A stretch of 64,000 nucleotides of DNA from Blautia wexlerae DSM 19850 (lineage in GTDB: Bacteria > Bacillota > Clostridia > Lachnospirales > Lachnospiraceae): contig NZ_CP102267.1 of NCBI RefSeq assembly GCF_025148125.1, positions 3,482,501 to 3,546,500 on the forward strand, in the 5' to 3' direction. The notes under the pieces were generated by a model. That model ran no database searches. It saw nothing but the letters and a program-made list of their open reading frames with translations, and was not told where the DNA came from. Shown here piece by piece: positions 4,109 to 55,457 of this stretch (position 1 is the first letter of the stretch; every line of letters starts with the position of its first letter). The translations under genes were made by a program, and so were the position numbers.

Positions 4109-4111
4109 CCC

Positions 4112-5011: not shown

Positions 5012-5037
5012 GATTTTTCTCCTCTATCTCTGTTTAT

Positions 5038-5068
5038 CGGATTCTGCAGTTTTATACTGCAGAATCCG
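5038..5068 (-). other. Intercistronic hairpin between binding-protein and permease genes
   Basis: Perfect 12-bp inverted repeat: arms CGGATTCTGCAG at 5038-5049 and its complement at 5057-5068, with a 7-base loop. There is no T-run after it on the minus strand, so it is more likely an mRNA-stabilising or partial attenuation structure than a full terminator. Confidence 0.6.
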
Positions 5069-5102
5069 GTAAATTTCCAGCTAATTATAATTCAACTTTT
5101 TA

Positions 5103-6386: not shown

Positions 6387-6450
6387 TTTGTTTCCTCCTT
6401 AATATATAGTTTTTATATACTTCCCCCTTTTAAAAGGTTAGTTTTATGTT

Positions 6451-6466
6451 GGGAAAGCGCTTACCC
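6451..6466 (-). promoter_or_regulatory. LacI-family operator in front of the sugar operon
   Basis: GGGAAAGCGCTTACCC is a near-perfect palindrome centred on the GCGC core typical of LacI/GalR and CcpA sites. It lies between the lacI-type gene and the binding-protein gene and is the likely target of that regulator; CcpA binding is an alternative. Confidence 0.65.
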
Positions 6467-6562
6467 GATAGTTTCTTAAATATCCTGTTTCATAACCAAT
6501 TAGTTATAAAACAGGATCTGTTTTTTTCTCAAGCAGCAGCTTATATTGCTTTGCTCATCGTC

Positions 6563-7582
6563 TTATCCTATATTTTTAACACTAAACCTTCTGATTATTT
6601 TATGCGGAACATAAATCAGAGACTCTGTAGACTGTTTTTCTTCTTCAATCAGCATTAACAGTTCTCTTGCAGCTTTTCTTCCCTCTTCATAATAAGGAAT
6701 CCTTATTGTAGATAACGAAGGAGTTACATACTGAGCCAACTCAGTATCATCTATCCCCATTACCGAAAGACTTTCAGGAACTTTCATACCAAATTTTCTG
6801 ATACATGCAATAGCTCCAATTGCTGTCATATCACAACAGGCAAGCACAGCCGTTGGAAGAACCAAGCTCTCTTCATAAATACGCTGCATCGCATTCATAC
6901 CACTTTCATATGAAAAATCGCCCTCTACAACATAAGAGTCTGGTATGTCCAGATTAAAGTTCTTTGTAATTTCATAAAAGGCCTTTAATCTTTGTGCTCC
7001 TGAAGAATAATCGTTTTGTGGTCCGCTGATATATGCAATTCTTTTATGTCCATTTGCCATAAGAAATTCTACTGCATCTGCAATTATTTTCTTATTATCA
7101 TGAGTTACAGTATTGATCAAAGTCTTATTGTCAGCTGCTTCTTGTGTAAACAATACAATGGGATAATCTAATTCCAACATCCATTGTACCTGGCTGCTAT
7201 CAATATTTACCCCTGCCAGTAAAACCCCTGATGCCCTATGCTCCTGCATTCTTTCAAGTAACATTTTTTCCTTTTTACTGTCACCATCCGATTCACAGAT
7301 CATAACTGTGTAACCTTTTTTCTGACAAATACTGTTAATCCCCTTAATTGTTGATGAAATTACTGCATTAGACACGTCACTGACTATTACCCCAATAATA
7401 TTGGACTTATCAGTAGCAAGCCCTTTCGCAAAGGTATTTGGTTTAAAGCGATTTCTCTCTATTGCATCAAGAACTCGCTTTTTTAATTCGGGACTTACCG
7501 TTTTTGTACCATTCATTACTCTGGATACTGTAGCTATAGAAACTTTTGCTTCATTTGCAATGTCTTCAATCGTTACTGACAT
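6563..7582 (-). CDS. LacI-family transcriptional regulator
   Basis: 339 residues from the chosen start. The N-terminal HTH is MSVTIEDIANEAKVSIATVS followed by RVMNGTKTVSPELKKRVLDAI, then a periplasmic-binding-protein-like effector domain (IIGVIVSDVSNAVIS onward). An ATG six bases earlier (7588) is possible, but GGAGGA abuts it. The ATG at 7582 has GGAGG at seven bases and gives the usual MxVTIxDIA opening. It lies just upstream of the sugar operon in the same direction and probably represses it through the site at 6451-6466 and itself through 7601-7614. Confidence 0.9.
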   Translation of the reverse strand: MSVTIEDIANEAKVSIATVSRVMNGTKTVSPELKKRVLDAIERNRFKPNTFAKGLATDKSNIIGVIVSDVSNAVISSTIKGINSICQKKGYTVMICESDGDSKKEKMLLERMQEHRASGVLLAGVNIDSSQVQWMLELDYPIVLFTQEAADNKTLINTVTHDNKKIIADAVEFLMANGHKRIAYISGPQNDYSSGAQRLKAFYEITKNFNLDIPDSYVVEGDFSYESGMNAMQRIYEESLVLPTAVLACCDMTAIGAIACIRKFGMKVPESLSVMGIDDTELAQYVTPSLSTIRIPYYEEGRKAARELLMLIEEEKQSTESLIYVPHKIIRRFSVKNIG

Positions 7583-9682: not shown

Positions 9683-9748
9683 GTCACAATACCTCGTTTC
9701 TGATTTTTTATCGTTCACTTTTCCTGTATTCAAATATTTTTTCTTCCG

Positions 9749-10732
9749 CTACAGTCTTACCTGTGCCTGCTGCCTGTTTTCCTCCCTGAATGCCCTGGGA
9801 GTCATATGGTATCTTTCCTTAAATACCCGGTGAAAATAACTGTTATTCTCGTATCCCACAGCTGCAATAATGTCACTGATGGCCAGATCTGTGTCACACA
9901 TCAACTCTACGGATTTATTCAGACGTTTCCTCTGAAGCAACTCCTTGAAATTAAAGCCTGTGGTTTTCTTGATCATCTTGCTTAGCACATGCATGGGCAG
10001 ATGAAGCGTTTCACACAGCTCAGTGAGAGTTGCAGTTTTGTATTTCTGTTCTATATAGTCCAGGGTTGTCATAGAGATCATATTCTCGTACTGATTTGGC
10101 ACACGCATTTCCACATACTGTACGGAATCCACCAGATACAGGAAAATCAGCCCCATAGTTGTCTGATTGATCCGGTTATTCTCACCCTTACCTGTCACCA
10201 GAGAATAGATCATATTCTCCAACAGATTCTGGATCTGCAGAACCTCTGCCACTCTGAAATAAAGATACTCTCCCTTCTCCTCATCCTGGCGAAGAATATT
10301 TACCAGAAAATCTGCCAGCACATTATTTCGCCCTGCCATGGAATAAGTCACATCAAAAAATTCCGGAAGGATCATAAAATTAATAGCAATGTCACTCTCT
10401 CCCGCAGGCAGAAGCTCATGTTTTGTATACTGATTAAGAAACAGCAGCTCACCCTTTCCAACCACTACTTTCTTGCCGTCTATAATATTGGTGACAGAGC
10501 CCTCGCATACATAAAGCACCTCAATAAAATTGTGTCTGTGAGCAGGGAAATAAACAAACCGGGTATGGGTACGCACAGTGATCAGCTTACCCTCATTCAG
10601 CATCTTTCTGCTGTCTACAATGAAATCCCTGCCTGAGGTGTATAGCTCCTTATCCACCTCTGCTCTTCCATCCAGGATTTTCTGCTCTTCCTCTGTGATT
10701 TTCTTTAAATGATCTAATAATTCCTGCTGCAT
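9749..10732 (-). CDS. AraC-family regulator with cupin sensor domain
   Basis: 327 residues from ATG 10732 (AGAAGG upstream); the GTG three codons earlier is less likely. The N-terminal cupin shows FVYFPAHRHNFIEVLYVCEG around residue 57. The C-terminal pair of HTHs is seen as LTELCETLHLPMHVLSKMIK and ISDIIAAVGYENNSYFHRVF. It probably controls the adjacent serine hydrolase and/or nearby transport genes in response to a sugar or peptide ligand; the ligand cannot be read from sequence. Confidence 0.85.
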   Translation of the reverse strand: MQQELLDHLKKITEEEQKILDGRAEVDKELYTSGRDFIVDSRKMLNEGKLITVRTHTRFVYFPAHRHNFIEVLYVCEGSVTNIIDGKKVVVGKGELLFLNQYTKHELLPAGESDIAINFMILPEFFDVTYSMAGRNNVLADFLVNILRQDEEKGEYLYFRVAEVLQIQNLLENMIYSLVTGKGENNRINQTTMGLIFLYLVDSVQYVEMRVPNQYENMISMTTLDYIEQKYKTATLTELCETLHLPMHVLSKMIKKTTGFNFKELLQRKRLNKSVELMCDTDLAISDIIAAVGYENNSYFHRVFKERYHMTPRAFREENRQQAQVRL

Positions 10733-38581: not shown

Positions 38582-39751
38582 TCATAATGTAGTTATAATC
38601 TTATACAATGCTTCCACGCTGTACGGCAGTATCCTCTCATCCAATTGAAATTTCGGATGATGCAGAGGATGATTTTCTCCTGGTATTCCTGCAAGAAATA
38701 CTGTGAAAAGTCCTCTGGTTTCTCTGAAATATCTGTATGCATTATCACCTGAAAGAAACAGCTCATCTTCTCCTTCCAGGACAAACTTATCCCCGAATAC
38801 TTCTTCACCCACTGCCTTTGCTGTCTCTGTAAGTTCCTCATCATTGGCAAACGCATATACCGGATCTTTTGGAAATTCCATACGGATCTGTGTGCCAGTC
38901 TGCTTTTCAATTTCCTGCAGATTTCTCTCCAGCTCGTGCTCAAGTGCCATGTAAGTTTCTTCATGAACTGCGCGTATATTTCCGTTTAATACCACATGGT
39001 CTGCAATAATATTCGTATATTCACCGCCATGGATCGTACCCGTACCCACAATATATTTTCCTGCATCCGGATGCTGTTTTCCAAAACTTTCATTCAGATT
39101 ATGAATGGCACTTATCACTTGAGCAGCTGCATAAATTGCATCAATCCCCTTATCCGCTTCACACCAGTGACTGGATTTTCCATGAACATGAATCTGCATA
39201 CTGTTGATCATGGAAGATGCCTGTCCCCGATGCACTGCCATCCCAAATGTCATATCCGCTGCGTAATGAAACATCAGAAATGCATCTGCTTTCGGATTCT
39301 CTAATGCTCCGGCCTGAAGCATTCTTTTTGCACCTTCACCAATCTCCTCTGCAGGTTCAAAAAGGAACCGGAGCCTGACCGGAAAACTTTCCTGCATTCT
39401 TTGCTCTTCTGCCACAATTTTTGCAAGGATCAGTGCTGCTGCCAGGATCATATCGTGACCGCAGGCATGCATACATCCCTGATTTACTGATGCATATGGT
39501 AGATTTGTCTGCTCCTGTATGGGCAATGCATCCATCTCCGCCCTGAGTACAACCAGTTTCTCCCTGTTTCTCAGAGATGGAAGTTCCGCGATCAATCCTG
39601 TAGGTTCTATCGGCACAATCTCATATCCCAGTTTCTCCAGATATTTCCGGATATATGCAGACGTCTCCACTTCCTGAAGTGCCAGCTCCGGATGTTGATG
39701 AAAGTAATGTCTCAATGTGATTAATTCTTCCGTATATTTTTCTATATTCAT
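38582..39751 (-). CDS. M20-family amidohydrolase/peptidase
   Basis: 389 residues. Metal-binding and catalytic motifs: MHACGHDM (about 96), FEPAEEIGEGAKRM (about 132) and the C-terminal HHPKFQLDE. The dimerisation domain begins around 185. This is the amidohydrolase subgroup (hippurate hydrolase, N-acyl-amino-acid or indole-acetyl conjugates) and acts in the cytoplasm. It starts 20 bases after recQ stops and may be cotranscribed with it, but no functional link is evident. Confidence 0.88.
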   Translation of the reverse strand: MNIEKYTEELITLRHYFHQHPELALQEVETSAYIRKYLEKLGYEIVPIEPTGLIAELPSLRNREKLVVLRAEMDALPIQEQTNLPYASVNQGCMHACGHDMILAAALILAKIVAEEQRMQESFPVRLRFLFEPAEEIGEGAKRMLQAGALENPKADAFLMFHYAADMTFGMAVHRGQASSMINSMQIHVHGKSSHWCEADKGIDAIYAAAQVISAIHNLNESFGKQHPDAGKYIVGTGTIHGGEYTNIIADHVVLNGNIRAVHEETYMALEHELERNLQEIEKQTGTQIRMEFPKDPVYAFANDEELTETAKAVGEEVFGDKFVLEGEDELFLSGDNAYRYFRETRGLFTVFLAGIPGENHPLHHPKFQLDERILPYSVEALYKIITTL

Positions 39752-39771
39752 CTGTTTTCCAACCTTTGTTC

Positions 39772-41661
39772 TCAGGGATTACCATTTTCATCTTCCGACA
39801 TACTCAAAACCGCATTCGGACGTTCCAGGCAGAACTTCTGTATCTCTTCCAGAAATCTCTGACCGTATTTCTTTAGCTTATTCTCGCCCACACCGGAAAC
39901 CTCCAGCATTTCTTCTTCATTTGACGGACATTTGATGCACATATCTATCAGCGTCTTATCACTGAACACGATATATGGAGGCATGGCTTCCTCTTTTGCA
40001 ATTTGCAGACGAAGTTTCCGCAGGGCTTCAAATAAATCGTAACCTGCTGCCGTAAGCGCATCTGTACTGCGTTTTCTGACAGATTTCTGGGGCTTTTTCT
40101 TTTTATCCGGTTCTTTTTCCTCGTAAGTACGCATGATCACGTGAGTATTTTCATCTCTTAGCGGAGAAATATCGCCCAGTTTCAGCACACTGTAACGTTC
40201 CTGTGTCTGATAGAGATATCCCATCTCAGTCATCTGGCTGATCAGTGCCCTGAGTTCTGCCTCACTGTGATCATTCAATGCTCCATAAGATTTATACTTA
40301 TCTGCTCCAAGCTCCCTCAACCGGGCTCTCTTAGCCCCCAGCAAAGTACCAAGCACAATTGTCAGTCCATACCTTCCTCTCGTCTCAGCTACACAGTTCA
40401 CTACCCACTTCGCCTCTCTGGTCATATCTGTCTCATGGTATTCTCTGTGGCAATTTCCACAATTATCACAGGGACCGAAGGTCTTTTCACCGAAATACTC
40501 CAGAATATAATTTCGCAGACATCCTGTTGTTTTACAATATCCTTCCATGATCTGAAGCCTTCGTATATCCCGCTGACGAATGAGAAATTCATCCTCTTCA
40601 TCCACATCGGAAAAATCTTTGTTATCCAGAAGCATTCGGTCGATCATAACATCCTGTGCAGAAAACAATAGAACGCACTGGGAATTCTCTCCGTCACGCC
40701 CTGCACGTCCTGCCTCCTGATAATAATTCTCCATACTCTGCGGCATATTGTAATGGATCACATATCTCACATTGGATTTATCAATCCCCATTCCAAATGC
40801 ATTTGTTGCAATAATAACGGGGGTTCTGTCGTAAATGAAATCATCCTGATTCTTTTTTCTGGTTTCATTATTCAGTCCTGCATGATATCTGGTAACAGCA
40901 ACTCCTTTTTGGAAAAGCAGTTCAAAAAGATTGTCCACATTTTTTCTTGTAGAGCAGTAAATAATCCCGCTCTCTGTTGGATGTCTGTCTATGTAATCCA
41001 TCACAAAATCGTCTTTTCGCCGGATATTTTCCACGCTGTAATATAAATTCTTTCTATCAAACCCGGTAATCACTACTTTCGGATCTTCCAGATTTAAAGT
41101 ACAGAGAATGTCGTTCTTTACTTCCTCTGTTGCAGTTGCGGTAAAAGCACTGACGATCGGACGACCGGGAAGATTTTTTACAAAGTCTACGATTTTGACA
41201 TAGCTTGGTCTGAAATCCTGGCCCCACTGTGAAATACAATGTGCCTCATCCACTGTCACCATGGAAATCTCCACCTGTCTGGCAAATTCCAGAAACTCAT
41301 AATTTTCCAGACGTTCCGGTGCAACATAAATAATTTTGTATCTTCCTCCTGCTGCCAGGTACAACGCCTTGCTAATCTGACTTTCCGACAGTGAAGAATT
41401 GATAAATGCGGCATGTATTCCCGCTTCATTCAAAGCCTTTACCTGATCCTGCATCAGTGAGATCAGAGGAGAAATTACAATCGTAATTCCTGACAGCATC
41501 AGTGCCGGTACCTGATAACAGATGGATTTTCCGGCTCCTGTCGGCATGATTGCAAGCACATCCCGGTGTTCCAGAATGGACTCCACAACACTCTCCTGCC
41601 CTTCTCTGAATGTATCATATCCAAAATAAGTCTTTAAGGTCTGTACTGCCTGTCTGTTCAC
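39772..41661 (-). CDS. recQ: ATP-dependent DNA helicase RecQ
   Basis: 629 residues. Walker A MPTGAGKSICYQVPALMLSG (about 39), DEAH box VTVDEAHCISQWGQDFRPSY (about 136), and motif VI QEAGRAGRDG (about 320). The RecQ zinc-binding cluster is seen with CDNCGNC (about 400). A winged helix follows, then a C-terminal HRDC domain (AGYDLFEALRKLRLQIAKEE). The enzyme unwinds duplex and fork DNA in recombination repair. Full-length and typical. Confidence 0.95.
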   Translation of the reverse strand: MNRQAVQTLKTYFGYDTFREGQESVVESILEHRDVLAIMPTGAGKSICYQVPALMLSGITIVISPLISLMQDQVKALNEAGIHAAFINSSLSESQISKALYLAAGGRYKIIYVAPERLENYEFLEFARQVEISMVTVDEAHCISQWGQDFRPSYVKIVDFVKNLPGRPIVSAFTATATEEVKNDILCTLNLEDPKVVITGFDRKNLYYSVENIRRKDDFVMDYIDRHPTESGIIYCSTRKNVDNLFELLFQKGVAVTRYHAGLNNETRKKNQDDFIYDRTPVIIATNAFGMGIDKSNVRYVIHYNMPQSMENYYQEAGRAGRDGENSQCVLLFSAQDVMIDRMLLDNKDFSDVDEEDEFLIRQRDIRRLQIMEGYCKTTGCLRNYILEYFGEKTFGPCDNCGNCHREYHETDMTREAKWVVNCVAETRGRYGLTIVLGTLLGAKRARLRELGADKYKSYGALNDHSEAELRALISQMTEMGYLYQTQERYSVLKLGDISPLRDENTHVIMRTYEEKEPDKKKKPQKSVRKRSTDALTAAGYDLFEALRKLRLQIAKEEAMPPYIVFSDKTLIDMCIKCPSNEEEMLEVSGVGENKLKKYGQRFLEEIQKFCLERPNAVLSMSEDENGNP

Positions 41662-41686
41662 CTGAAGCCTCCCTCTGCATTTTAAT

Positions 41687-42574
41687 CTATTTTAATCTCT
41701 TTTTCAGCTCCTGAATCAGTTCGGAATAGTCTCTGTGCTGCATCTTCGGAAATGCCTTGATGATACGCCCCTGACCGACAACGGTATGATTGGTAATAGA
41801 GCTGGACAGTTCCTCAAACTGAGCCTGAAGCTCCGCTCTTTTTATACGAAGCATTTCGATAGATTTTTCTCGCTGTGCGGCAGTTGCATCACGCAGTTCT
41901 GCTGCTGCAAGAGTTGCCTGAACCTTTCCTTCTCCCACTTTCTGTGCTGTGCCAATCGTAGTCGTAGCCAGTGTATCACTCAGTTTATCACTTACAATTC
42001 TCAAATCTGAGCGAACCTTATCCAGTCTGGTAAGCTTTTTATTCAGTCCCTGGATCACTGCTACCGTCACAATAAAATCTGTCAGATACACAGCATACAA
42101 AACTGCTATCACAATCCACTCCCAGGTTGCAGGTGTATGTAACGCATGTGCCTCTACATACTTCTGGAAAACTTTTACTACCATAACGATAGCCAGTCCC
42201 CAGATCAGAGAAAACTCCAGGCAAATGTAGCCATGAAAATTAAAGGGTTTATCTGAATAATCCCACCATCTTGCGTGGAAACACACATCCAGCAGCCAGC
42301 CTGCAACCAACTCCACCGCAGTTGCCAGAACAATTCCAAACACAAAAATCATTCCATCACTCATCTGACGCCCGCTGCCCTGAATTGTATTGAGCAAAGC
42401 AAAAACAGAAAGCACCCCAAATCCATATACCGGGCAGACCGGTCCATTCAGGAAACCTCTGTTTATAACTTTTCCCAACGCTACTGCATGAAAAATAACT
42501 TCAACAACCCAGCCGCCAAAAGAATAAATAAGAAAATACAGACATATCTGAAAATACGTCATTCCACAAATCAT
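41687..42574 (-). CDS. PF06541-type membrane protein (putative ABC permease CmpB)
   Basis: 295 residues from ATG 42574 (AAGGAGG); the 17-codon extension reads through the ribosome site. About six N-terminal membrane segments include SFGGWVVEVIFHAVALGKVI and RGFLNGPVCPVYGFG, the family signature. A soluble helical tail runs from about 180 to the end (EGKVQATLAAAELRD region, likely coiled coil). The family is annotated as ABC-permease-like, but the function is unproven. Confidence 0.7.
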   Translation of the reverse strand: MICGMTYFQICLYFLIYSFGGWVVEVIFHAVALGKVINRGFLNGPVCPVYGFGVLSVFALLNTIQGSGRQMSDGMIFVFGIVLATAVELVAGWLLDVCFHARWWDYSDKPFNFHGYICLEFSLIWGLAIVMVVKVFQKYVEAHALHTPATWEWIVIAVLYAVYLTDFIVTVAVIQGLNKKLTRLDKVRSDLRIVSDKLSDTLATTTIGTAQKVGEGKVQATLAAAELRDATAAQREKSIEMLRIKRAELQAQFEELSSSITNHTVVGQGRIIKAFPKMQHRDYSELIQELKKRLK

Positions 42575-42641
42575 TCGTTGCTCCTCCTTGCTTTCATCAA
42601 ACCACTTTTCATATCCCATTATCACAGTTCAAACAGAAAAC

Positions 42642-45590
42642 TTACCCCAGACTGTTTTGTAATGTACTGATCAATTCCTCTATAACAATTGGTTTGGATA
42701 GAAATCCATCCATACCACATGCCAGTGCTTTCTTTCTGTCTTCGTCAAAAGCATTGGCAGTCATGGCAAGGATCGTAATTCCCGCCAGTGCCGGATCATC
42801 CAGTGAACGGATCTGCTCAGTAGCCTCATATCCGTTCATTACAGGCATCTGCACATCCATAAGCACCAGATCATAATCACCTGGTCTTGAATTCTTAACC
42901 TTCTCCACAGCCTCTGCTCCATCTTCCGCTGTATCAACCTGAAAACCATATTCACTAAGGAGTGCTACTGCAATTTCTCTGTTCAGTTCATTATCTTCCA
43001 CAAGCAGTATTTGCCTGCCTCTGAAATCTGAATCTGCTGCCGGAAGAATATTATCCTCTGCCCCGGCCTGCTTCTGACCGATAGCAGCCATCAGAGTCTC
43101 TCTGATATCTGACATAAACATAGGTTTGGCACAGAACGCAGTCACCCCTGCTGCCCTGGCTTCCACTTCAATATCTGACCAGTCGTAAGCAGTCAGGATA
43201 ATGATTGGCGTATCATCACCAAGACTGCGGATCTGACGGGTAACTTCAATGCCATTCATATCAGGCAGACGCCAGTCAATGATATAAGCGTGGAATGCAT
43301 CCCCCATTTCCATAGACTGTCGTGCACGGAGAACAGCCTCCTTACCGGAAAGTGTCCATTCCGAACGCATTCCAACCTTTACAAGCATCTTAGTCACACT
43401 GTCACAGGTATTGAAATCATCGTCTACTACCAATGCCTTCAGACCTTCCAGTTCTGCGATTTTCTCTATACGGTGGTTCTCAGGCTGAATCCGCAATGGC
43501 AGACGGATAATAAATTCAGTACCTTTGCCCTGTTCTGTTTGAACCTCAATGGTTCCGCCCATCATATCCACGATGTTCTTGGTGATAGCCATGCCCAGTC
43601 CTGTACCCTGAGTCCTGCTTACAGTGGAAGTCCGCTCTCTCTCAAAAGGAGAAAATATCTTCTGTACAAATTTTTGACTCATGCCGATTCCGTTATCCTT
43701 TACCCGGATTTCGTACAGTTCACAGCCTCTCTGTATACCCGGATACTCTCTCAGCCGGACAGAAACGGTTCCGCCTGCAGGAGTAAACTTGATCGCATTG
43801 GACAAAAGATTCAGCAGTACCTGATTCAGCCTGGTCTTGTCACAATAAACATCCTCATTGATAACATCCATGACATCCATGTAAAGCTCTAACTGTTTCG
43901 CATGGATCTGTCCGCTGATAATGGTTTTCAGATCATGAAGAACCTCTGACAGACTGACTTCCGTCTCTTCCAGATGGATTTTCCCGCTCTCAATACGGCT
44001 CATATCCAGGATATCATTGATCAGTGAGAGCAGATGATTACTGGAGGAAAGAATCTTACCCAGATAATCCCGAACCCTTTCTTTATCATCAATGTTGCTT
44101 ACAGCCAGTGTGGTAAAACCAATGATCGCATTCATTGGTGTACGGATATCGTGAGACATATTGGAAAGGAAGGTGCTCTTTGCCTTGTTTGCAGTCTCCG
44201 CAGCGCGGACCGCCTCAGAAAGGGCCTGATTCATTTTTCTGTCAGAGGTACGATCTGACAGAACCAGGATATATTTCTTTTTCCCGTTTACCTCGCTGCC
44301 CATTGCAACGTTATGAAACCAGCGGTGTTCTCCTGTTTTCTGATGAACATATTCAAGATCCCATTCCTGCTGCTCATGAACCTGGATTTCTTCCAAATAC
44401 TTCTTCTCCGGATCTTCAACGTCCCCGGGATGCAGTTTTCCAAGGACACAAATATCTTTACGAATCTGTTCTACTGTAATTCCCAGCAGTTTTTCCACAT
44501 TGGGACTGACGTAATCTGCCTGATATGTTTTTGCATCCAGCATCAGGAAAACGTCATCTACATTCATTGACAGCTTTTGAAACAATTCGTCCCTGTACAG
44601 GATCTCCGTATCCTTTCTCTTCAGGTTTACCCTGTTTTTCCGGAGAATAATTCCAATAAAAAGACCGGCAATACACACCGCTACTGCACTTACAAGCAGC
44701 ACAGTGCTACGCTGCAGAACATTCATACTTGCATTGACGATATCAGCCTGGACAAGTCCCAGAAAGATCCAGTCCTGAGGTTTGGATTTCTCATAGACCA
44801 GATAGTAATCCTCTCCATCCAGATTTATCAGCATTGCATCTGTATGTCCTTCCTTAAACTCTTCTGAAAGTTTAAGGATCTCTTTTTCAGACATATTGGA
44901 ATGTTCTCTCAGAATCCCAAAGAAATTATACACCTCTCCCCATGCCTCAGAAGAATGATCCACAACAACACGGCCATCCGGATGAACCACATAACTCTGG
45001 GCATTTCCATTGAAAGCAGAAATATTCAGCACATTTACGATATCAGAGTTTTCATAGGCAATGGCAATGGCATCATATTCAAAGCCCTGATAACTTCCAT
45101 GAGGCCTGGGAGTAGCAAAAACAAGGAGCTGGGATTTTCCGGGAACCGTTGCATTGGTTATCACATCATTTCCCTGCCGGATCTCATCTTCAATATTTTC
45201 CTGCAATCCCAGATACCCGGTTTCACCTGTTGCCATCTTATAGTTCCCGTCCGCTGACAGGAAATAAAAATCTAAAAAGCCTGCATCTTCCTGTGCTTTC
45301 TCTATATACTCACGAATTTCACTTTCATCGGAAGTGTTCTGCAAATATTCCCCCCATATATGGAGATAAGTCAGATTCTTATTTGTCAGCTCACTTAGCA
45401 TATTATCAGACTGATGAAAAATTTCTGTCAGGTGAGAAACACTTTCCTCATAAACAGTCTTCGATACAAACCCCAAATATTGGAAAACAGTCAAAAGGAT
45501 TCCAACAAATAGGGCAATAAGAACTGCTGCATTCCATCGTTTTCTCACAACCCGTTTCTTTCTGTTTGTATTATGATTCTTAACATCCAT
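42642..45590 (-). CDS. Hybrid sensor histidine kinase with two receiver domains
   Basis: 982 residues from ATG 45590 (GAGGTGA). A membrane segment at about 25-45, an extracellular dCache-like sensor to about 295, and a second membrane segment (LLVSAVAVCIAGLFIGII) come first. A PAS domain (about 340-455), HisKA with SHDIRTPMNAI (His about 483) and HATPase (NLLSNAIKF, GTGLGMAIT) follow. Receiver 1 has the Asp in YIIDWRLPDMNG (about 780) and receiver 2 in LVLMDVQMPVMNGY (about 915). No HPt or output domain is present. The start overlaps the stop region of the lipoprotein gene upstream, so the lipoprotein may be its co-receptor. Confidence 0.92.
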   Translation of the reverse strand: MDVKNHNTNRKKRVVRKRWNAAVLIALFVGILLTVFQYLGFVSKTVYEESVSHLTEIFHQSDNMLSELTNKNLTYLHIWGEYLQNTSDESEIREYIEKAQEDAGFLDFYFLSADGNYKMATGETGYLGLQENIEDEIRQGNDVITNATVPGKSQLLVFATPRPHGSYQGFEYDAIAIAYENSDIVNVLNISAFNGNAQSYVVHPDGRVVVDHSSEAWGEVYNFFGILREHSNMSEKEILKLSEEFKEGHTDAMLINLDGEDYYLVYEKSKPQDWIFLGLVQADIVNASMNVLQRSTVLLVSAVAVCIAGLFIGIILRKNRVNLKRKDTEILYRDELFQKLSMNVDDVFLMLDAKTYQADYVSPNVEKLLGITVEQIRKDICVLGKLHPGDVEDPEKKYLEEIQVHEQQEWDLEYVHQKTGEHRWFHNVAMGSEVNGKKKYILVLSDRTSDRKMNQALSEAVRAAETANKAKSTFLSNMSHDIRTPMNAIIGFTTLAVSNIDDKERVRDYLGKILSSSNHLLSLINDILDMSRIESGKIHLEETEVSLSEVLHDLKTIISGQIHAKQLELYMDVMDVINEDVYCDKTRLNQVLLNLLSNAIKFTPAGGTVSVRLREYPGIQRGCELYEIRVKDNGIGMSQKFVQKIFSPFERERTSTVSRTQGTGLGMAITKNIVDMMGGTIEVQTEQGKGTEFIIRLPLRIQPENHRIEKIAELEGLKALVVDDDFNTCDSVTKMLVKVGMRSEWTLSGKEAVLRARQSMEMGDAFHAYIIDWRLPDMNGIEVTRQIRSLGDDTPIIILTAYDWSDIEVEARAAGVTAFCAKPMFMSDIRETLMAAIGQKQAGAEDNILPAADSDFRGRQILLVEDNELNREIAVALLSEYGFQVDTAEDGAEAVEKVKNSRPGDYDLVLMDVQMPVMNGYEATEQIRSLDDPALAGITILAMTANAFDEDRKKALACGMDGFLSKPIVIEELISTLQNSLG

Positions 45591-45595
45591 TCTTC

Positions 45596-47446
45596 TCACC
45601 TCAGAGTAATGTAGTCTTCAGGCTCTGCAAGAATGGCATTACCATCTGAAACATATGTTGTCCAGGTATCTTCCACAGAGGTATCCCCTCCATCAAATAC
45701 AATATTTTCCTCTGCCGGATAAGCTTCCATATATTGTGGTGCTGCAAGGCAGGTCACAGTAAAAGTATCCTTGTCCTGAATCTGTTTTCCATTCTTTGAA
45801 ACTTTACTCAATGTATAACCATTATCCGTTTCCCTGATTTCTACAGAAATACCACTGAACACAGGCAGAGAGCCACGGTTAAAGGGGATAAAGCCTCCCT
45901 GGTAGCCTTCTACGAAGTTTCTGACCGTTTCCTTCAGTTCTGCCCCGCTCATCTCACTGCTGTAAGCGGAAAGCTCGTTTGGCATAATCATGTTGCCTGC
46001 CATTTTTTCTGTATAACCGGCCTTCAGTACATTTCCTGTAAAGCTGTTTCCTGTTGCAATCAGCACATCCGTCCCATAAATACCACGCAAAGTGTTTGCC
46101 ATAACAGAATAGGCTTCATTGCCTCCGCTGGTATGGAAACGATTGGAATAAGTTTTCTTTGAATCCAACACAATATCCTCAGAAGTGGATTTTTCTTCAA
46201 GAAGCTGGGAATTAAATGACTGATAAGCCTGCTCTGCATTATATTCTCCTGAGATCATCTTAGACACCACATCCCTGGAAATGGAAAAAAAGTCATTTGA
46301 CGCAATACGGATATACATATGGTTTTCTTCGATCACAGGTTTCACATCCTTCAGATATTCCGTAAGCCGGAAATCCACATCCTGGCTATAGCTTAACAGA
46401 TCCTGCCCATCATAAATGATCCGGTTCTGCGCATCCTCTGAAAGCATTGTGTTCAGTACCTTCATTGCTTTCTGCCGACGTGTTTCATCCTTTGTCAGGT
46501 CACGGTTTAAAGCTATCTGGAAATATGGTGTAGTCATCAGCCACTTTTCGCCGTTCTGCTGAAAGAATGGCAGGAATGTTGTGTTAATGCCCTGATCCTG
46601 GAACATTTTTACACCGGCAGAACTGCCGAAATACATGGCAAGCTTACCACTTTTGTACATCTCAACCACATCATCATAATTCATATCCAGATCATCCTGG
46701 CTCAGCCCTGTATCCTGAATAAACTGCTCCATACGTTCAAAAGCCTCCGGCCAGACAATACTGTCCAGACCTTCTCTCTTTGTATTGTCCGGGTCACTGT
46801 AGATGGTACGCCACTTACGTCCATCCCCAGAAGACAGCTCTGATGCAGACAGACCCTGCAGTGTTTCCATACAGGTATAATCATAGTAATAGTCTGCAGT
46901 AAACCCACGGATACCCACCTCATCAAATGCCTGGCAGGCAGAAACGAAGCTTTCATAATCCGTTGGAAGAGGAATATCATACTTTTCAAAAAGATCTTTG
47001 TTCACTACAAAGCCATGGGCATCTGCACACACAGGAAGCCAGTTTACGCTGCCATCCTGATTTTTGAAATTGTTAAGGTAGGTATCATAGACAGCACCTG
47101 CAGCATTGGTTGTGGAAAGATCCATCAGACTGTCCTTCAGGGGGCTTGCATCATGGAGGGAAAACCTGCAGCAGGTTATAATATCCGGCAATCCGCCGTT
47201 TTCATTCAGAAAACGATAGAAATCCAGATCATTATTGCCTACTACAAATTCAACGTTGATATCCGGAAGCTGTTCCTGGATGTATGGCGCATATTTTTCA
47301 TACAGCTTTGTGCTCCATAAATACACTGTGATGGTTTCTGCATCTTCTTTTTCCGCACTTTTCCCGCCGCAGCCAGACAGAAGTGATACGGCTGTCACCA
47401 TCGCCAAAAGCACAGAAACTAACTTGTTCCATTTTTTCTTTTTCAT
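45596..47446 (-). CDS. Lipoprotein: family 1 binding protein fused to a 5'-nucleotidase-C-like domain
   Basis: 616 residues. The signal peptide ends in the lipobox SLLSGCGG, so the protein is lipid-anchored. Residues ~35-400 look like a sugar-type solute-binding protein (ITVYLWSTKLYEKYAP, WLPVCADAHGFVVNKDLFEK). Residues ~440-560 resemble the 5'-nucleotidase C-terminal domain: DVLIATGNSFTGNVLKAGYT, SGAELKETVRNFVEG and FSGISVEIRE. No transporter permeases are nearby; it lies between two hybrid kinases (TAATG overlap with the upstream kinase). I infer a sensory rather than transport role. Confidence 0.78.
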   Translation of the reverse strand: MKKKKWNKLVSVLLAMVTAVSLLSGCGGKSAEKEDAETITVYLWSTKLYEKYAPYIQEQLPDINVEFVVGNNDLDFYRFLNENGGLPDIITCCRFSLHDASPLKDSLMDLSTTNAAGAVYDTYLNNFKNQDGSVNWLPVCADAHGFVVNKDLFEKYDIPLPTDYESFVSACQAFDEVGIRGFTADYYYDYTCMETLQGLSASELSSGDGRKWRTIYSDPDNTKREGLDSIVWPEAFERMEQFIQDTGLSQDDLDMNYDDVVEMYKSGKLAMYFGSSAGVKMFQDQGINTTFLPFFQQNGEKWLMTTPYFQIALNRDLTKDETRRQKAMKVLNTMLSEDAQNRIIYDGQDLLSYSQDVDFRLTEYLKDVKPVIEENHMYIRIASNDFFSISRDVVSKMISGEYNAEQAYQSFNSQLLEEKSTSEDIVLDSKKTYSNRFHTSGGNEAYSVMANTLRGIYGTDVLIATGNSFTGNVLKAGYTEKMAGNMIMPNELSAYSSEMSGAELKETVRNFVEGYQGGFIPFNRGSLPVFSGISVEIRETDNGYTLSKVSKNGKQIQDKDTFTVTCLAAPQYMEAYPAEENIVFDGGDTSVEDTWTTYVSDGNAILAEPEDYITLR

Positions 47447-49623
47447 TATAACTTCTCCCTCTGATCGCGTTTTACTAACTCATTGATCACTTTTACTAAT
47501 AATTTCCCATCAACAGGCTTGGCAATATGTTCATCCATTCCTGCTTCCTTTGCTCTCATTTTGTCCTCAGTGAACGCGTTTGCTGTCATGGCAATGATCG
47601 GTATCACTTTTGCATCCTCTCTGTCCAGAGAGCGGATCATCTTTGCTGCTTCATATCCATTCATGACAGGCATCATAATATCCATAAGAATAGCATCAAA
47701 TTCTCCAGGTCTGTTTTTTCTGAATATGTCAACAGCCTTCTGTCCATTCCATGCTTTTGTCACCACAGCGCCTTCATTCTGAAGCACAAATTCTGCAATC
47801 TCCATATTCAGCTCATTATCCTCTGTCAGAAGAACATGGAGTCCATGGATAGAAGTTTCCGTTTTTTCTTCAGCTTCAGTCCTGTCCTTCATATCTGTGT
47901 CAATCCGGAATGGAATCCGGATCACAAATGTAGTCCCTGTGCCTTCTTTACTTTCAAAGGAAATGGTTCCGCTCATTTTTTCCACCAGTTTTTTTGTGAT
48001 TGGCATTCCCAGCCCTGTTCCGGCGAATTTTGTGCGGCTTCCTGCATGTTCCTGTGCAAATGGTTCAAAAATGCGTTTCTGGAATGCCTCTGTCATTCCA
48101 ATTCCGGTGTCTCTGCAGACAAATTCCAATGTGGTCATTGCTGTCTGTTTCGATGGGATTTCCCGACAGCTGATATAGACATATCCGTTTTCTTTGTTAT
48201 ATTTCACCGCATTAGACAAAATATTCATTAGAATCCGTTTCACATGCACCGGACTTCCAATAAGATTCCAGTGTGTAACTTCTTTCTCTTCCCAAATGAT
48301 CCGGATATTCTGCTCTGTAGCCATATGTTCGATCACACCCAGTATTTCCTCAGAAATACTGTTCAGATTAAATGGGATTTCTTCCAGAACCACTTCATCT
48401 GACTCCAGCTTGCTCATGTCCAGAACCTCGTTTATCAGTTCCAGCAACAGATGAGATGCCTCTTTGATCTTTGCCCTGCATTCCGTCTGTTTCTCCATAT
48501 TGTCTGCATAATAGTCTGCCACATTGATCATGCCGCAGATTCCATTGATCGGTGTCCGGATATCATGGCTCATTCGCTGCAGAAACTCGGTTTTTGCCTC
48601 ATTGGCTGCTTCTGCTTTTTTTGCTGTTCTCAGAAGTTCTGCTTTATATTTTTCATCTTTTTCCTGTTCCTGTTTCCGGTGTGCCAGATCCGCTCTGTAA
48701 CCCCAGAAGCAGAATATACCGAATATGAGTAAATAAAGAAAAACGACAGCTGTTACACTTAGCGGCAGGTTACGGAATACTTCCGTATCCGGAAGATAGG
48801 CATAAATATAATAATCCCGCTGCTTCAGCATGATTCCATAACATCTGGTTCCTTCATTTTTTAAATGAAAAATATGCTGACTGTCTGTATGCTCTTTCAT
48901 TGCCTGGACAACCTGATTGCCGGCAGTATCCTGTCCCAGCAGGCTTTCATCGTTGCTGGCAACGATGGTTCCCTTATCTGCAACAATAATCGTTCCATCT
49001 TTCTGAGTGCTATAGCCATTTAAAAGGTTCTGTATTGTCAGGGTATAATTTCTGACAAATTCCGGAGATGTGTAATAATAAATTGCAACCATACCTGGTG
49101 CATCTTTTCTGGCACAGGCTGCAATGTCGATACGTGATCCGTCTTCTCGGTCAATCCGTTCCGAATAAGATCTTTCTTCATATCCGGTAAAATCCATGAT
49201 AATGTCTTTTTGCAGATAATCTGTGATCTCATTGGTCAGAGCCTCATCCATGCTGTATTTGCAGACTGTCTTTCCCTCTGCATCCAGCACAAGGATACCA
49301 TCCACCCAGAGGGTCTGCAGATTTTCTTTCAGAAACTCCTGGCTTAACCGGCAGCCGTTTTCTGTTTCCATGTCGATATTCGTACTCATCTGTCTGGCAC
49401 TTTCAATGGCGCGGAGGAGACTTTTAGATTCCGAAGCTTCATTATAATGGGTGTAGGTGGAACACTGCACTTTGACATAGTTTACAGTTTTCACCATCCT
49501 GTTCTCTGCTTCCTTTTTCTCTGCCTGAAAAAAGTAATACAGGGAAGCTGCAGTCACACAGATTCCAAGCAGAATGCCGAATATCCAGAATCGCTTTACT
49601 TTTATTCTTCTCCTAATATCCAA
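47446..49623 (-). CDS. Hybrid sensor histidine kinase with one receiver domain
   Basis: 725 residues, read from TTG 49623, which has GGAGGTGG at six bases; the ATG at 49656 has no site. Membrane segment FWIFGILLGICVTAASLYYF, an extracellular sensor to about 280, a second membrane segment (VVFLYLLIFGIFCFWG), HisKA with SHDIRTPINGI, HATPase (NILSNAVKY, GTGLGMPIT), and a C-terminal receiver with the Asp in AILMDIMMPVMNGY. No DNA-binding output. It overlaps the binding-protein gene upstream by 11 bases and the lipoprotein downstream by one (TAATG). Confidence 0.9.
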   Translation of the reverse strand: MDIRRRIKVKRFWIFGILLGICVTAASLYYFFQAEKKEAENRMVKTVNYVKVQCSTYTHYNEASESKSLLRAIESARQMSTNIDMETENGCRLSQEFLKENLQTLWVDGILVLDAEGKTVCKYSMDEALTNEITDYLQKDIIMDFTGYEERSYSERIDREDGSRIDIAACARKDAPGMVAIYYYTSPEFVRNYTLTIQNLLNGYSTQKDGTIIVADKGTIVASNDESLLGQDTAGNQVVQAMKEHTDSQHIFHLKNEGTRCYGIMLKQRDYYIYAYLPDTEVFRNLPLSVTAVVFLYLLIFGIFCFWGYRADLAHRKQEQEKDEKYKAELLRTAKKAEAANEAKTEFLQRMSHDIRTPINGICGMINVADYYADNMEKQTECRAKIKEASHLLLELINEVLDMSKLESDEVVLEEIPFNLNSISEEILGVIEHMATEQNIRIIWEEKEVTHWNLIGSPVHVKRILMNILSNAVKYNKENGYVYISCREIPSKQTAMTTLEFVCRDTGIGMTEAFQKRIFEPFAQEHAGSRTKFAGTGLGMPITKKLVEKMSGTISFESKEGTGTTFVIRIPFRIDTDMKDRTEAEEKTETSIHGLHVLLTEDNELNMEIAEFVLQNEGAVVTKAWNGQKAVDIFRKNRPGEFDAILMDIMMPVMNGYEAAKMIRSLDREDAKVIPIIAMTANAFTEDKMRAKEAGMDEHIAKPVDGKLLVKVINELVKRDQREKL

Positions 49624-50428
49624 GATTATCCACCTCCAGATACTTCTGGGGATCATCCAGATATTTTTTAATGATTTTCAGGGATGTGCCATCCTGACGC
49701 ATTTCTTCCAGCGTCTGATCCATCTGCTCACAAATTCCTCTGTCATCCTCTTTTGCAAAAGCAACACCTATCCCGACCACCATCAGCGGATCTTCCAGGA
49801 TACGGAAGCTTGCATCATAATCCTTCATGTACTGGACAATGGATTCCTCATGTGCAGCAACTGCATCTACATATCCTTTTCCCAGAAAGGTATAGATTAG
49901 TTCCCTGTGCCCAAGACTGATCAGATTGCCCAGTTTGGGGATCCTTTCATCTGTCCGGTTCAGAAAGATGCCTTCCGGTTTGGTTGTGGACTGGACGGCA
50001 AGGTTCTTTCCCTCCAGATCACTTAGTTTATAGATATCACTGCTCTCATTTACAGCAACTACCTGGCGGCTTGCTATGTAGGGTCCTGCCCAGCGGTAAT
50101 CGTCAAGGCGTCCTTCCATGGAAAAACAGCCCATAATACAGTCGATCTCTCCGCTTTCTACCAGTTCTTTTTTCTTCTCCCAGTTGATCTGGACAACATC
50201 CACCTGATACCCCATTCTTCTGAAAGCTTCTGTAGCCAGTTCCACATCAATTCCTGTGGGGATTCCATCTTCATTCAGATAATTGTATGGCGGATAACTG
50301 TCACTGCCCAGGGTGATAACGGGCTTTTCTCTTTCTTTTTTAGTAACATCTGCATTTTTGCACCCTGCCAGGGCAGTTGCTAAAATTCCCACAAGCAGAA
50401 TGCCTGCAATCACTCTTTTTCCTTTCAT
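49613..50428 (-). CDS. Lipoprotein, amino-acid-type solute-binding protein (family 3)
   Basis: 271 residues. Lipobox ATALAGCKN, then the family 3 fold: ITLGSDSYPPYNYLNEDGIP, GIDVELATEAFRRMGY, IDCIMGCFSMEGRLDDY and LEGKNLAVQSTTKPEG. There is no permease or ATPase beside it. It is the first gene of an overlapped set with two hybrid kinases, so it probably presents a ligand (amino acid or similar) to the kinase that follows. Its leader carries a c-di-GMP-I aptamer and an intrinsic terminator. Confidence 0.85.
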   Translation of the reverse strand: MKGKRVIAGILLVGILATALAGCKNADVTKKEREKPVITLGSDSYPPYNYLNEDGIPTGIDVELATEAFRRMGYQVDVVQINWEKKKELVESGEIDCIMGCFSMEGRLDDYRWAGPYIASRQVVAVNESSDIYKLSDLEGKNLAVQSTTKPEGIFLNRTDERIPKLGNLISLGHRELIYTFLGKGYVDAVAAHEESIVQYMKDYDASFRILEDPLMVVGIGVAFAKEDDRGICEQMDQTLEEMRQDGTSLKIIKKYLDDPQKYLEVDNLGY

Positions 50429-50521
50429 CTTTTCTCCATTCCTGCTGTTCTTCTCTATTTTCCATCAAATTTAACCGAATCAGGTAAGTCCCCTGCGGAG
50501 GTTGCGAATATCCGCTTGAAG

Positions 50522-50565
50522 ACAAAAAAAAGTTCCTTGTAAAAAATTTTACAGGAACTTTTTCC
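50522..50565 (-). terminator. Intrinsic terminator of the riboswitch expression platform
   Basis: AGTTCCTGTAAAA and its complement form a long stem. On the minus strand it is followed by T8 (complement of 50523-50531). It lies between the aptamer and the binding-protein gene, where a riboswitch terminator is expected. Confidence 0.75.
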
Positions 50566-50599
50566 ATAATGCCCATTTAACATTTACCTTTTTTTATTA

Positions 50600-50700
50600 C
50601 TGAGGCATGATGCAACCGGCTGGCATGGCCAGATTTCAATCTGACTTTAGCTCCTTCTGGCTTTGCGCCCCGGCTTTTCAACCGGTTTGCCAATAAATGC
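50600..50700 (-). ncRNA. c-di-GMP-I (GEMM) riboswitch aptamer
   Basis: Read on the minus strand: GGCAAACC, then GGTT-GAAA-AGCC (a stem capped by the conserved GNRA loop), GCGCAAAGCC, AGGAGCTAAAG (the tetraloop-receptor side with CTAA), a variable hairpin CAGATT/AATCTG, and GCCAGCCGGTTGCA closing P1 with flanking GGCAT/ATGCC. This is the order and spacing of the GEMM-I consensus. It lies between the MATE gene and the receptor array and is followed by an intrinsic terminator. A cGAMP-sensing variant cannot be excluded by eye. Confidence 0.85.
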
Positions 50701-50757
50701 CATAAAAAATTATTTTTATTATAGCACTCATACTATATCATGTCTATAAGAAAATAT

Positions 50758-52974: not shown

Positions 52975-54190
52975 TCAACAGTTTGCTCTTCCTGAAACGC
53001 CTCGCAGCTTTTCAAAATAACAATAAAATGCCCATTTTTCGTACACGGGAACATATCCTAAAACGCCATCCTGATATTTCTTCTCATAAAATTTATCCAT
53101 GATATCCAGACTGTCCATCTGCTGTCCAAGTCTTGCTTTTGCTCCGGTCAGCTGCCTGTGCTGTTTTTCCAGTCTTTCAATCTCTTTTTCTATTTCTTCT
53201 GTATCTATTCTTGAACCGATTTTATTCAGAATTGCTTCTTCAAATTTCGGATTCTTCACCAGCTTCCGAATAACTTCTTCCACTGCATTGTTAATCTTCT
53301 CCTCGCTCCATTGTTTACGATATCCACATTTATGACCATCTACCAGGCGACGATGTTTGCAGGCATAATAGAAATAATCCTTATATAAGGTTCCGTCTTT
53401 CTTTTTCTTTCGGTTCACGTTTCCATACATACCGCTTCCACATAACGGACATCTCAATATTCCGGATAAAATATGCTCATGATCGAGGCTATGTGTCTTT
53501 TCATATTTCACACCTGTTTTTTCCCATTTTTGATGAGCCAGCTCCCAGTCTGTTTCCGAAATAATCCCTTCATGGATACCATCGTGCATCATATAATTTT
53601 CCTGCTTTACAATGCGATATTCATTTCTTGTACCAGAAACTTTCTCGTTTTTCCTTCGTCCATAAGCCAGCTTTCCACAGTATACCGGATTATCCAGAAC
53701 GCCTTTTATAAATGATGCGGCAAATGCGTCCAGTGTATTATTCTGTCGTTTTTTCTTTTTATATCCATGCTGGTTCAGCCATGCAGCAATCGCAGAGATT
53801 CCCATATTGGTATGAATAAATTTGTCATAGGTCAGACGAATAATCTCTGCTTCGTCCTCTGCAATCTGCAATTCTCCATTTACTAATTCATAACCATACG
53901 GAGCAAATCCACCATTCCATTTTCCTTCCCTGGCTTTCTGCTTACGTCCCTCCATTGTCTGAACAAGGATATTCTCCCGTTCAATCTCTGCCACCGCAGA
54001 CAAGACAGAAATCATCAGCTTTCCACTATCTTTTGAGCTGTCAATCCCATCTTCTACACAGATCAGATTCACTCCAAAATCCTGCATCCTCTGCAAAGAA
54101 TTTAAAACATCTGCCGCATTACGACCGAATCTGGAAAGCTTGAAAACCAGTACAAACTGTACCTCATCTGTTCCATTCTCAAAAAGGAAA
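52975..54190 (-). pseudogene. Large serine recombinase, truncated at both ends
   Basis: Recombinase text begins ENGTDEVQFVLVFKLSRFGR and has the zinc-ribbon region LRCPLCGSGMYG...YYACKHRR and a C-terminal coiled coil (about 345-380). The N-terminal segment with the catalytic Ser is missing: at 54190 the sequence passes into DNA flanking the tnpB element. The C-terminus diverges after FYEKKYQD. Intact relatives are about 500-550 residues. It is a relic of an integrase of a Tn4451- or phage-type element. Confidence 0.8.
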
Positions 54191-54207
54191 AAACAAACTC
54201 TTGAATA

Positions 54208-54350
54208 GTGACATGCTCTCGCCACTTAAATCTTACAGATTTTGAAGTGGGAGCTTCCTGCTCAATTGCCCTTCAGGGCAAAGCTAAAACAGGCTATCCC
54301 CGCGTGTCCCGCGGTTCTTTTTTATCCGGTTACGGATCTTTTCTGTGCTA
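54208..54350 (-). ncRNA. Probable omegaRNA/reRNA and right end of the tnpB element
   Basis: The 143 bases directly after the tnpB stop fold into several hairpins on the minus strand: CCGCGGG/CGCGGGG region, TTGCCCTgaAGGGCAA, and CACTTC...AAGTGGCGAG. The segment ends GAGCATGTCAC, as IS605-family right ends do. In characterised TnpB systems this RNA binds the nuclease, and the bases just beyond the end (here TATTCAAGAGTTTG) act as guide. Assigned by position and structure, not by expression data. Confidence 0.6.
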
Positions 54351-55457
54351 TTATGCACATTTTTTATATATTCTTTTTCCTTCTTCCAGAATATTGACCG
54401 CCGCATTCACATCCCGGTCCATCCGGTTTCCACATTCGCACAGGTATGTCCGTTCTGATAATGCCAGCTCTTTCTTTTTATGCCCGCATACACTGCATAT
54501 CTTGCTGGATGCAAAATATCTGTCTACTTTTATCAGATATTTTCCACGTTCTTCCAGCTTATATCCAAGCATGGAAAGGAACTGACCGTATCCGTTATCC
54601 TGTATCCCTTTTCCGAAATGCAGGCCTCCGGCTATCCCCTTCAGGTTCAGATCCTCCACACATACCGCGTCATAGTCTTCTGCAAGGCTGTGGCTGAGCT
54701 TATGCTGGAAATCCTTCCTCTGGTTCTTTATCTTTTCATGAGATAATGCAACCTTTTTCTTCTGTTTCTGATAGTTACGGCTGCCCTTTTCACATCTGGA
54801 AAGTTTTCTCTGTTCCCGGGCAAGTTTTTTCTCTGCATTCCGGTAAAACATGGGATATCCGGCTCTTTCACCGGTAGAAAATACACACATCCCATGCATG
54901 GCAAAATCCATCCCCAGGAATTTTTCCGCCTGTCTTTTCTCCACTGTTTGGTTTTCACAGTCGAACAGCAGGCTGGCAAAATATTTTCCGGACGGTTCCC
55001 TGCTCACAGTCACTGATTTCAGCTTCCATCCCTCCTGGATCATACGGTGGAGTTTTATTTTTACCGGCTGCATCTTTGGCAGTTTCAGGAACCTGTCCTG
55101 CAGACAGATATTCCCATTTACCATATTCGTTGTATAGGATTTCCGCGAATGTTTTTTTGATTTATAATGCGGAAATCCCACTCCCGGTTCCCGGAAAAAT
55201 TTCCGGAAAGCCCCTTCCAGATTTAACTGTACATTCGCCAGCGCAAGAGAATCTACCTCTTTCAGCCATGGATATTCTTTTTTATATCCGGCCGGCGTAT
55301 TTTTCAGCATCTTTTTTTCTTCCTGATAATGACGGATCTTATCCGCAAGCATCCGGTTATAGAGAAAACGACTGCAGCCGATCGTCTTCTCTATCTGGGT
55401 TATCTGTTCTTTATTTGGATAGATCCTTATTTTTACTGCCCGGTTTATCTTTCTCAC
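54351..55457 (-). CDS. tnpB: TnpB RNA-guided nuclease-family protein (IS605 OrfB)
   Basis: 368 residues starting at GTG 55457. The N-terminal HTH-like part (VKIRIYPNKEQITQIEKTIG) is followed by the RuvC core: D in FLGMDFAMHG (about 194), E in AVCVEDLNLKG (about 273), and D in CGNRMDRDVNAAVNI (about 350). A zinc finger KICSVCGHKK...YLCECG lies between. All three catalytic acids are present, so the nuclease looks intact. It would use the adjacent omegaRNA to cut DNA at a TAM. Confidence 0.9.
   Translation of the reverse strand: MRKINRAVKIRIYPNKEQITQIEKTIGCSRFLYNRMLADKIRHYQEEKKMLKNTPAGYKKEYPWLKEVDSLALANVQLNLEGAFRKFFREPGVGFPHYKSKKHSRKSYTTNMVNGNICLQDRFLKLPKMQPVKIKLHRMIQEGWKLKSVTVSREPSGKYFASLLFDCENQTVEKRQAEKFLGMDFAMHGMCVFSTGERAGYPMFYRNAEKKLAREQRKLSRCEKGSRNYQKQKKKVALSHEKIKNQRKDFQHKLSHSLAEDYDAVCVEDLNLKGIAGGLHFGKGIQDNGYGQFLSMLGYKLEERGKYLIKVDRYFASSKICSVCGHKKKELALSERTYLCECGNRMDRDVNAAVNILEEGKRIYKKCA

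Follow-up and report, generated by a model that had tools for sequence, protein, structure and literature searches.

What would a riboswitch for an internal signal, cyclic di-GMP (c-di-GMP), control when it stands before genes for receptors? The question is raised by a leader on the minus strand of a 64,000-nucleotide stretch of Blautia wexlerae DSM 19850 (positions 3,482,501 to 3,546,500 of contig NZ_CP102267.1; hereafter the window), which sits within a contig of 4.69 Mb. A preliminary description, made from the letters of this DNA, had proposed that a c-di-GMP-I (GEMM-I) riboswitch with a terminator gates an array of genes for binding lipoproteins and hybrid kinases. The leader carries a riboswitch of a known class; it is real and well placed, and its receptor-array target recurs across the family. 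We consider it very likely that GEMM-I controls the array. The fuller explanation, a c-di-GMP-I OFF switch acting by attenuation on a receptor operon, is in our judgement reasonably probable.

The leader and the genes behind it

The aptamer lies at 50608..50701 on the minus strand, where the covariance model RF01051 matches over its full length (positions 1-87 of 87; cmscan, E 3.2e-9) and scores 60.0 bits, above its gathering score of 35. This is the sole match at or above any gathering score in the window, and with it the aptamer passed the covariance-model check that the preliminary description had suggested. The motifs quoted there were all found on the minus strand in the order given: the aptamer core in the alignment consists of GGCAAACC, a GAAA-capped hairpin, GCGCAAAGCC, CTAAAG, and GCCAGCCGGTT. 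About 43 bases beyond the aptamer, in the same leader, begins a terminator-like stem-loop (50524..50565, minus strand) ending in eight U (50531-50524), which corresponds to the strong stem with T8 of the earlier reading. Its portion at 50565-50525, overlapping the U8, folds at -16.9 kcal/mol (z -5.25), and none of 200 shuffles equalled it; the terminator is absent from the list produced by a scan for simple terminators without bulges. A predicted sigma-70-type promoter, TAGACA-N17-TATAAT with TG before the -10 box (50718..50746, minus strand; 11 of 12 matches), ranks first among the 31 promoter-like sites between 41500 and 50900 (9.4 kb; shuffles average 18.4 sites) and would start transcription near 50711. 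A similar TGGACA-TATAAT, identified by eye, precedes the same array in Clostridium fessum. The order of the leader is thus promoter, aptamer, terminator, and gene.

Behind this leader, four open frames on the minus strand form the array. Pfam assigns them to a family 3 solute-binding lipoprotein (SBP_bac_3, 271 amino acids, 49613..50428; 88.7 bits), a hybrid histidine kinase with HisKA-HATPase-REC architecture (47446..49656), an SBP_bac_8/SBP_bac_1 solute-binding lipoprotein (616 amino acids, 45596..47446), and a second hybrid kinase with HisKA-HATPase-REC-REC architecture (985 amino acids, 42642..45599), which agrees with the receptor-array content proposed before. The first kinase may in truth start at the TTG at 49623, which would make its gene overlap the last bases of the binding-protein gene. 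In the translations, both solute-binding proteins (SBPs) begin with a lipobox-like signal, and both kinases retain the MSHDIRTP box and the receiver aspartate. The dCache_1 and PAS_3 matches in the second kinase are under their cutoffs, Pfam finds no Hpt domain in the four proteins, and the window's own array has no REC-HD-GYP or GGDEF protein. The SBP_3 protein resembles amino-acid-binding proteins generally; the SBP_1 protein matches three chains, weakly. Its C-terminal part (45596-47446) weakly resembles the C-terminal domain of 5'-nucleotidases, below cutoff in the window and above it in two related loci (L021, 5531-7468; L023, 5016-6905).

The operon would thus produce two split receptors, each made of a binding lipoprotein beside a hybrid kinase. 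Fused SBP3(-SBP3)-histidine kinase (HK)-REC proteins stand behind the same leaders in relatives, an arrangement that speaks for the unfused SBP_3 protein and its kinase working as one receptor. We take LuxPQ, TorT-TorS, and BvgS, with their split or fused binding-protein/hybrid-kinase receptors, to be analogues: the likeness to LuxPQ-type receptors lies in the binding-protein gene beside a hybrid kinase and in the fusions of relatives. The window differs from all three in its lipoproteins, its two receptors per operon, its riboswitch leader, and its lack of an Hpt match.

Related loci and leaders across the family

With the first array protein as query, we found 14 loci, spread over ten named genera (Faecalibacillus among them), at 90% identity or more over the best segment. 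One of them (L033), a fragmentary match, was left out, and the other 13 were scanned for GEMM-I. The B. wexlerae locus (L020) is 97.5% identical to the window over 13.2 kb, and the remaining loci match the window by blastn at roughly 84-86% over the whole or a part of about 42650-50460. Nine of the 13 carry a GEMM-I upstream on the strand of the array (L020, L021, L022, L023, L024, L028, L029, L030, and L032). In five of these (L020, L024, L028, L029, and L030), it stands before the SBP_3 gene with no other labelled gene between; in the other four, it is followed by SBP/kinase or REC-HD-GYP genes, which continue into the SBP_3 gene. The leader of the window is shared, by blastn, with B. wexlerae and with the E. 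ramulus locus L023, in which it stands about 6.5 kb farther upstream. We call this leader type B; it also occurs in a third Blautia genome (G665), where leader and aptamer, retained at 90%, immediately precede the same gene. The commoner leader, type A, is nearly identical between genera. Two leader types thus serve the same array. The receptor array as a kind of GEMM-I target is therefore not peculiar to one locus: other genera have it too, with leaders of two types and with several orders of the genes. Separately, another GEMM-I lies in the B. wexlerae locus (3466-6989), some 6 kb upstream of the leader of the array; the gene that it precedes encodes a 1,068-amino-acid HK-REC-REC protein.

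We built a covariance model, R1, from ten type A leaders and ran it on 397 genomes of the family. It matched in 124 of them, and RF01051 itself is present in 135. We compared all 18 strong hits (above 110 bits), six of which are training leaders of the model, with 26 weaker hits at 77-101 bits (27 were listed and one was left out), using local profiles to assign the domains of the operon genes. The first gene is of SBP or HK type behind 15 of the 18 strong hits, and 17 head an operon with SBP/HK genes, one of them (L160) counted on a 211-amino-acid SBP3 piece only; the remaining strong hit heads a GGDEF gene. Among the weaker hits, the corresponding counts are 3/26 and 4/26. The difference between strong and weaker hits is significant (Fisher p 1.7e-7), a value that overstates independence because the hits are related. 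When the training leaders are removed, an SBP/HK operon follows 11 of 12 strong hits. In G644, a genome new to the analysis, SBP/HK arrays stand behind both strong hits, and one of these arrays has a REC-HD-GYP gene near the front. In a sample of 295 genomes of the order, only five R1 hits exceed 100 bits, in three genomes of this genus. Within the family, some genomes carry GEMM-I aptamers as doublets or, once, as a triplet (G261:C7:89151-89391, G261:C14:84217-84447, and G262:C26:727-987).

Direction of the switch and competing explanations

In the proposed mechanism, the leader would act by transcription attenuation on the four-gene operon. With c-di-GMP bound, the aptamer would keep its strands, the downstream terminator would form, and the array would not be made; with no ligand, a strand of the aptamer would capture the terminator's 5' arm by pairing, and transcription would continue into the operon.

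We folded and aligned 22 type A leaders. Their terminator is paired in 100% of alignment cells, with two compensated pairs, and an antiterminator formed by the 3' strand of the aptamer with the 5' arm and loop of the terminator is paired in 97.7%, compared with 15-58% when slid. In the free nascent RNA, before the 3' arm of the terminator emerges, the antiterminator has a mean probability of 0.75 and exceeds 0.5 in 19 of 22 leaders (the exceptions are L124, L127, and L146), and the terminator reaches 0.99 with the aptamer forced versus 0.75 free. Folding predicts that type A leaders are OFF switches, like Cd1 of Clostridioides difficile. A further helix past the terminator (AUGAAAU with AUUUCAU) was dropped, since its pairing, at 70.1% of cells, is no better than that of shuffles.

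Cd1 (Cdi-1-3, before the flgB operon) shares with the window the aptamer family and the downstream terminator, and passages of PMC9262584 and PMC6200980 describe it as an OFF switch; in the former, its aptamer-competing antiterminator is only transiently stable. In PMC3649979, the legend of a figure speaks of positive regulation of flgB by Cdi1_3. The window differs from Cd1 in that its proposed antiterminator uses an inner aptamer strand, and in its target, a receptor array instead of flagella.

In the window, the candidate antiterminator strand inside the aptamer is AGGAGCU (50649..50655, minus strand) and its partner is AGUUCCU in the 5' arm of the terminator (50553..50559, minus strand). 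In the free nascent RNA, they pair at 0.6-0.76 before the 3' arm of the terminator emerges, and the same pairing reaches 0.70-0.82 in B. wexlerae and 0.71-0.94 in E. ramulus. With 10 bases of the 3' arm out, it drops to about 0.2-0.3 in the window. This assignment of AGGAGCU is suggestive only. Two other helices were rejected. GGCAU/AUGCC, which would close the window aptamer, is not retained in E. ramulus. The hairpin CAUCAUGCC/GGCAUUAUG, located after the aptamer and ahead of the terminator, shows a single compensated change in E. ramulus, but a hairpin at this place coexists with both the aptamer and the terminator folds and so explains no switching.

Several results weigh against the attenuation reading. 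The arm pairing observed in the window was equalled by 28 of 300 shuffled platforms, and covariation in the type A antiterminator is no greater than in shuffles. The terminator of the window, once complete, wins in both states (0.99). When up to 10 bases of its 3' arm have emerged, its 5' arm is covered by other upstream stretches to a similar extent with the aptamer forced (0.44-0.51) and free (0.39-0.54), and the forced fold excludes the AGGAGCU helix by construction; in the E. ramulus leader, coverage differs more between the states (0.38-0.56 free, 0.16-0.24 forced). Four of the 13 loci (L025, L026, L027, and L031) have no GEMM-I above cutoff in the stretch scanned. One of them is C. fessum (L026), in which the leader before the same array (about 9745-9885) retains, by eye, a similar promoter and the terminator and is missing the aptamer and the adjoining strand; it may represent a natural deletion or the state preceding the gain of the aptamer. 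Finally, no Hpt route from the kinases to a c-di-GMP enzyme was found in the genome of the window; its only Hpt match adjoins unrelated genes and was rejected as a phosphorelay link. Folding of the window leader does not discriminate OFF from ON, and the OFF direction there rests mainly on analogy with the type A leaders and Cd1, from which we regard it as reasonably probable.

The opposite direction, in which c-di-GMP would raise read-through and hence the number of receptors, has precedent in GEMM-I ON switches such as the pilM riboswitch, which senses 3',3'-cyclic GMP-AMP (cGAMP) (as described in part of PMC9262584). With the aptamer forced, the 5' end of the window leader, AAUUUUUU, can also mask the arm of the terminator, reaching 0.64 at one of the lengths folded. 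However, this helix is A-U rich and vanishes with the complete terminator, its 5' strand is not retained in the E. ramulus leader, and folding gives OFF for the common leader type, which serves operons of the same kind, so that we consider an ON switch unlikely. We give rather less credence to a real aptamer whose gate is idle in this genome, the terminator deciding alone or internal promoters feeding the array. This would fit the terminator that forms in both states at full length, the window antiterminator that is not significant against shuffles, the loss of the aptamer in C. fessum, and a repeat inserted between terminator and gene. Yet the aptamer retains its 60-bit score, the Blautia leader of G665 keeps it directly before the same gene, and the antiterminator of Cd1 is likewise only transient (PMC9262584, in the passage cited above).

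The association itself could reflect descent, leaders and arrays having been transferred together with no selection for control, as the similarity of the array genes and of the type A leaders between genera might suggest. This is improbable in our view, because two leader types serve the same array, the first gene behind type A leaders varies (SBP1, SBP3, an SBP3-HK fusion, or GGDEF), and the terminators keep their pairing through compensated changes. As to the ligand, we take one position of GEMM-I to specify c-di-GMP or cGAMP, with G there as the c-di-GMP form. The window has the G form, GGCAAACC, and we infer that c-di-GMP is its ligand. The GEMM-Ib (c-AMP-GMP) riboswitches of Geobacter, which share the fold family of the window aptamer, have A at this presumed site, and among the relatives only the E. 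ramulus leader (L023, aptamer 3279-3372) does, reading AGCAAACC. The genome of the window has 15 GGDEF and six EAL matches, and one of its four GEMM-I, the third (C1:3464089), precedes a GGDEF gene. That the window aptamer binds 3',3'-cGAMP instead is very improbable. According to a passage of PMC9481103, one aptamer tested there bound c-AMP-GMP better with a pocket change that is common among c-AMP-GMP variants.

Genomic setting and possible meaning for c-di-GMP signalling

Between the terminator and the first gene lies a dispersed, MITE-like intergenic repeat of 53 nucleotides, TCAAGCGGATATTCGCAA ... GGGGACTTACTTGATTCGGTTAAAT (50467..50519, minus strand), with copies elsewhere in the same genome and in other genomes of Blautia and of the family. 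We rejected it as a second control element because these copies sit at unrelated intergenic places. Genes for CmpB-like, RecQ, and M20 peptidase proteins follow closely downstream of the array (38582-42625, minus strand), a part that, among the genera compared, is common only to the window and B. wexlerae. No terminator is listed on the minus strand at 41500-44666, so read-through from the array into these genes is possible. Just upstream of the array region are a large serine recombinase (52975-54225, minus strand) and an IS605 OrfB-type transposase (54351-55457, minus strand). A plasmid search in near mode found no match to the array.

Elsewhere in the genome, the second GEMM-I (C1:4068814) precedes an SBP_1 gene and a hybrid kinase, and REC-GGDEF-EAL proteins of 588 and 961 amino acids and an SBP_3-GGDEF-EAL protein of 974 amino acids are encoded. 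The gene of the last (L103, 9976-12900, minus strand), in which an SBP_3 domain is joined directly to c-di-GMP enzymes, lies a few kb from that of the 588-amino-acid protein (L103, 3304-5070, minus strand). A GGDEF-REC-HD-GYP gene (L109, 11638-13389, minus strand) may be broken, because its HD-GYP match spans two frames.

The products of similar operons suggest what the receptors might act on. Five relatives (L022, L023, L030, L032, and L160; L030 is from Blautia sp. Marseille-P3087) have arrays that encode a REC-HD-GYP protein whose HHExxDGxGYP motif is intact, and in three (L149, L150, and L160) the first gene encodes a GGDEF protein, again with its motif intact. Because relatives' operons also carry such a phosphodiesterase or cyclase, a loop in which c-di-GMP sets the number of receptors and these act back on c-di-GMP is the likely form of the circuit; that it runs through these enzymes we put forward tentatively. 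We hold as slightly more speculative that the Lachnospiraceae share a horizontally moving regulon, in which c-di-GMP OFF leaders of close similarity gate entire sets of receptors for outside ligands and the phosphorelays of these receptors end in HD-GYP or GGDEF enzymes.

GEMM-I is attached to a large and disparate set of genes, according to a passage of PMC7266159, and sensor genes as targets are thus not contrary to expectation. None of the papers listed by our literature search dealt with GEMM-I before binding-protein/hybrid-kinase arrays. Most discussion of c-di-GMP riboswitches concerns their control of outputs (flagella, pili, and adhesins, for example), whereas this leader family precedes inputs, and its hosts are human gut commensals, in which such riboswitches are hardly described in the literature searched. 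C. fessum, with array and terminator and no aptamer, provides a natural control. If the explanation is true, an internal signal may govern how attentive the cell is to its surroundings: c-di-GMP would set the breadth of sensing and decide which outside signals the cell hears, the receptors would act back on c-di-GMP, and the HD-GYP and GGDEF genes in the operons of relatives would form a compact feedback loop. With a phosphodiesterase as output, the feedback would be positive, giving a two-state switch between listening and not listening.

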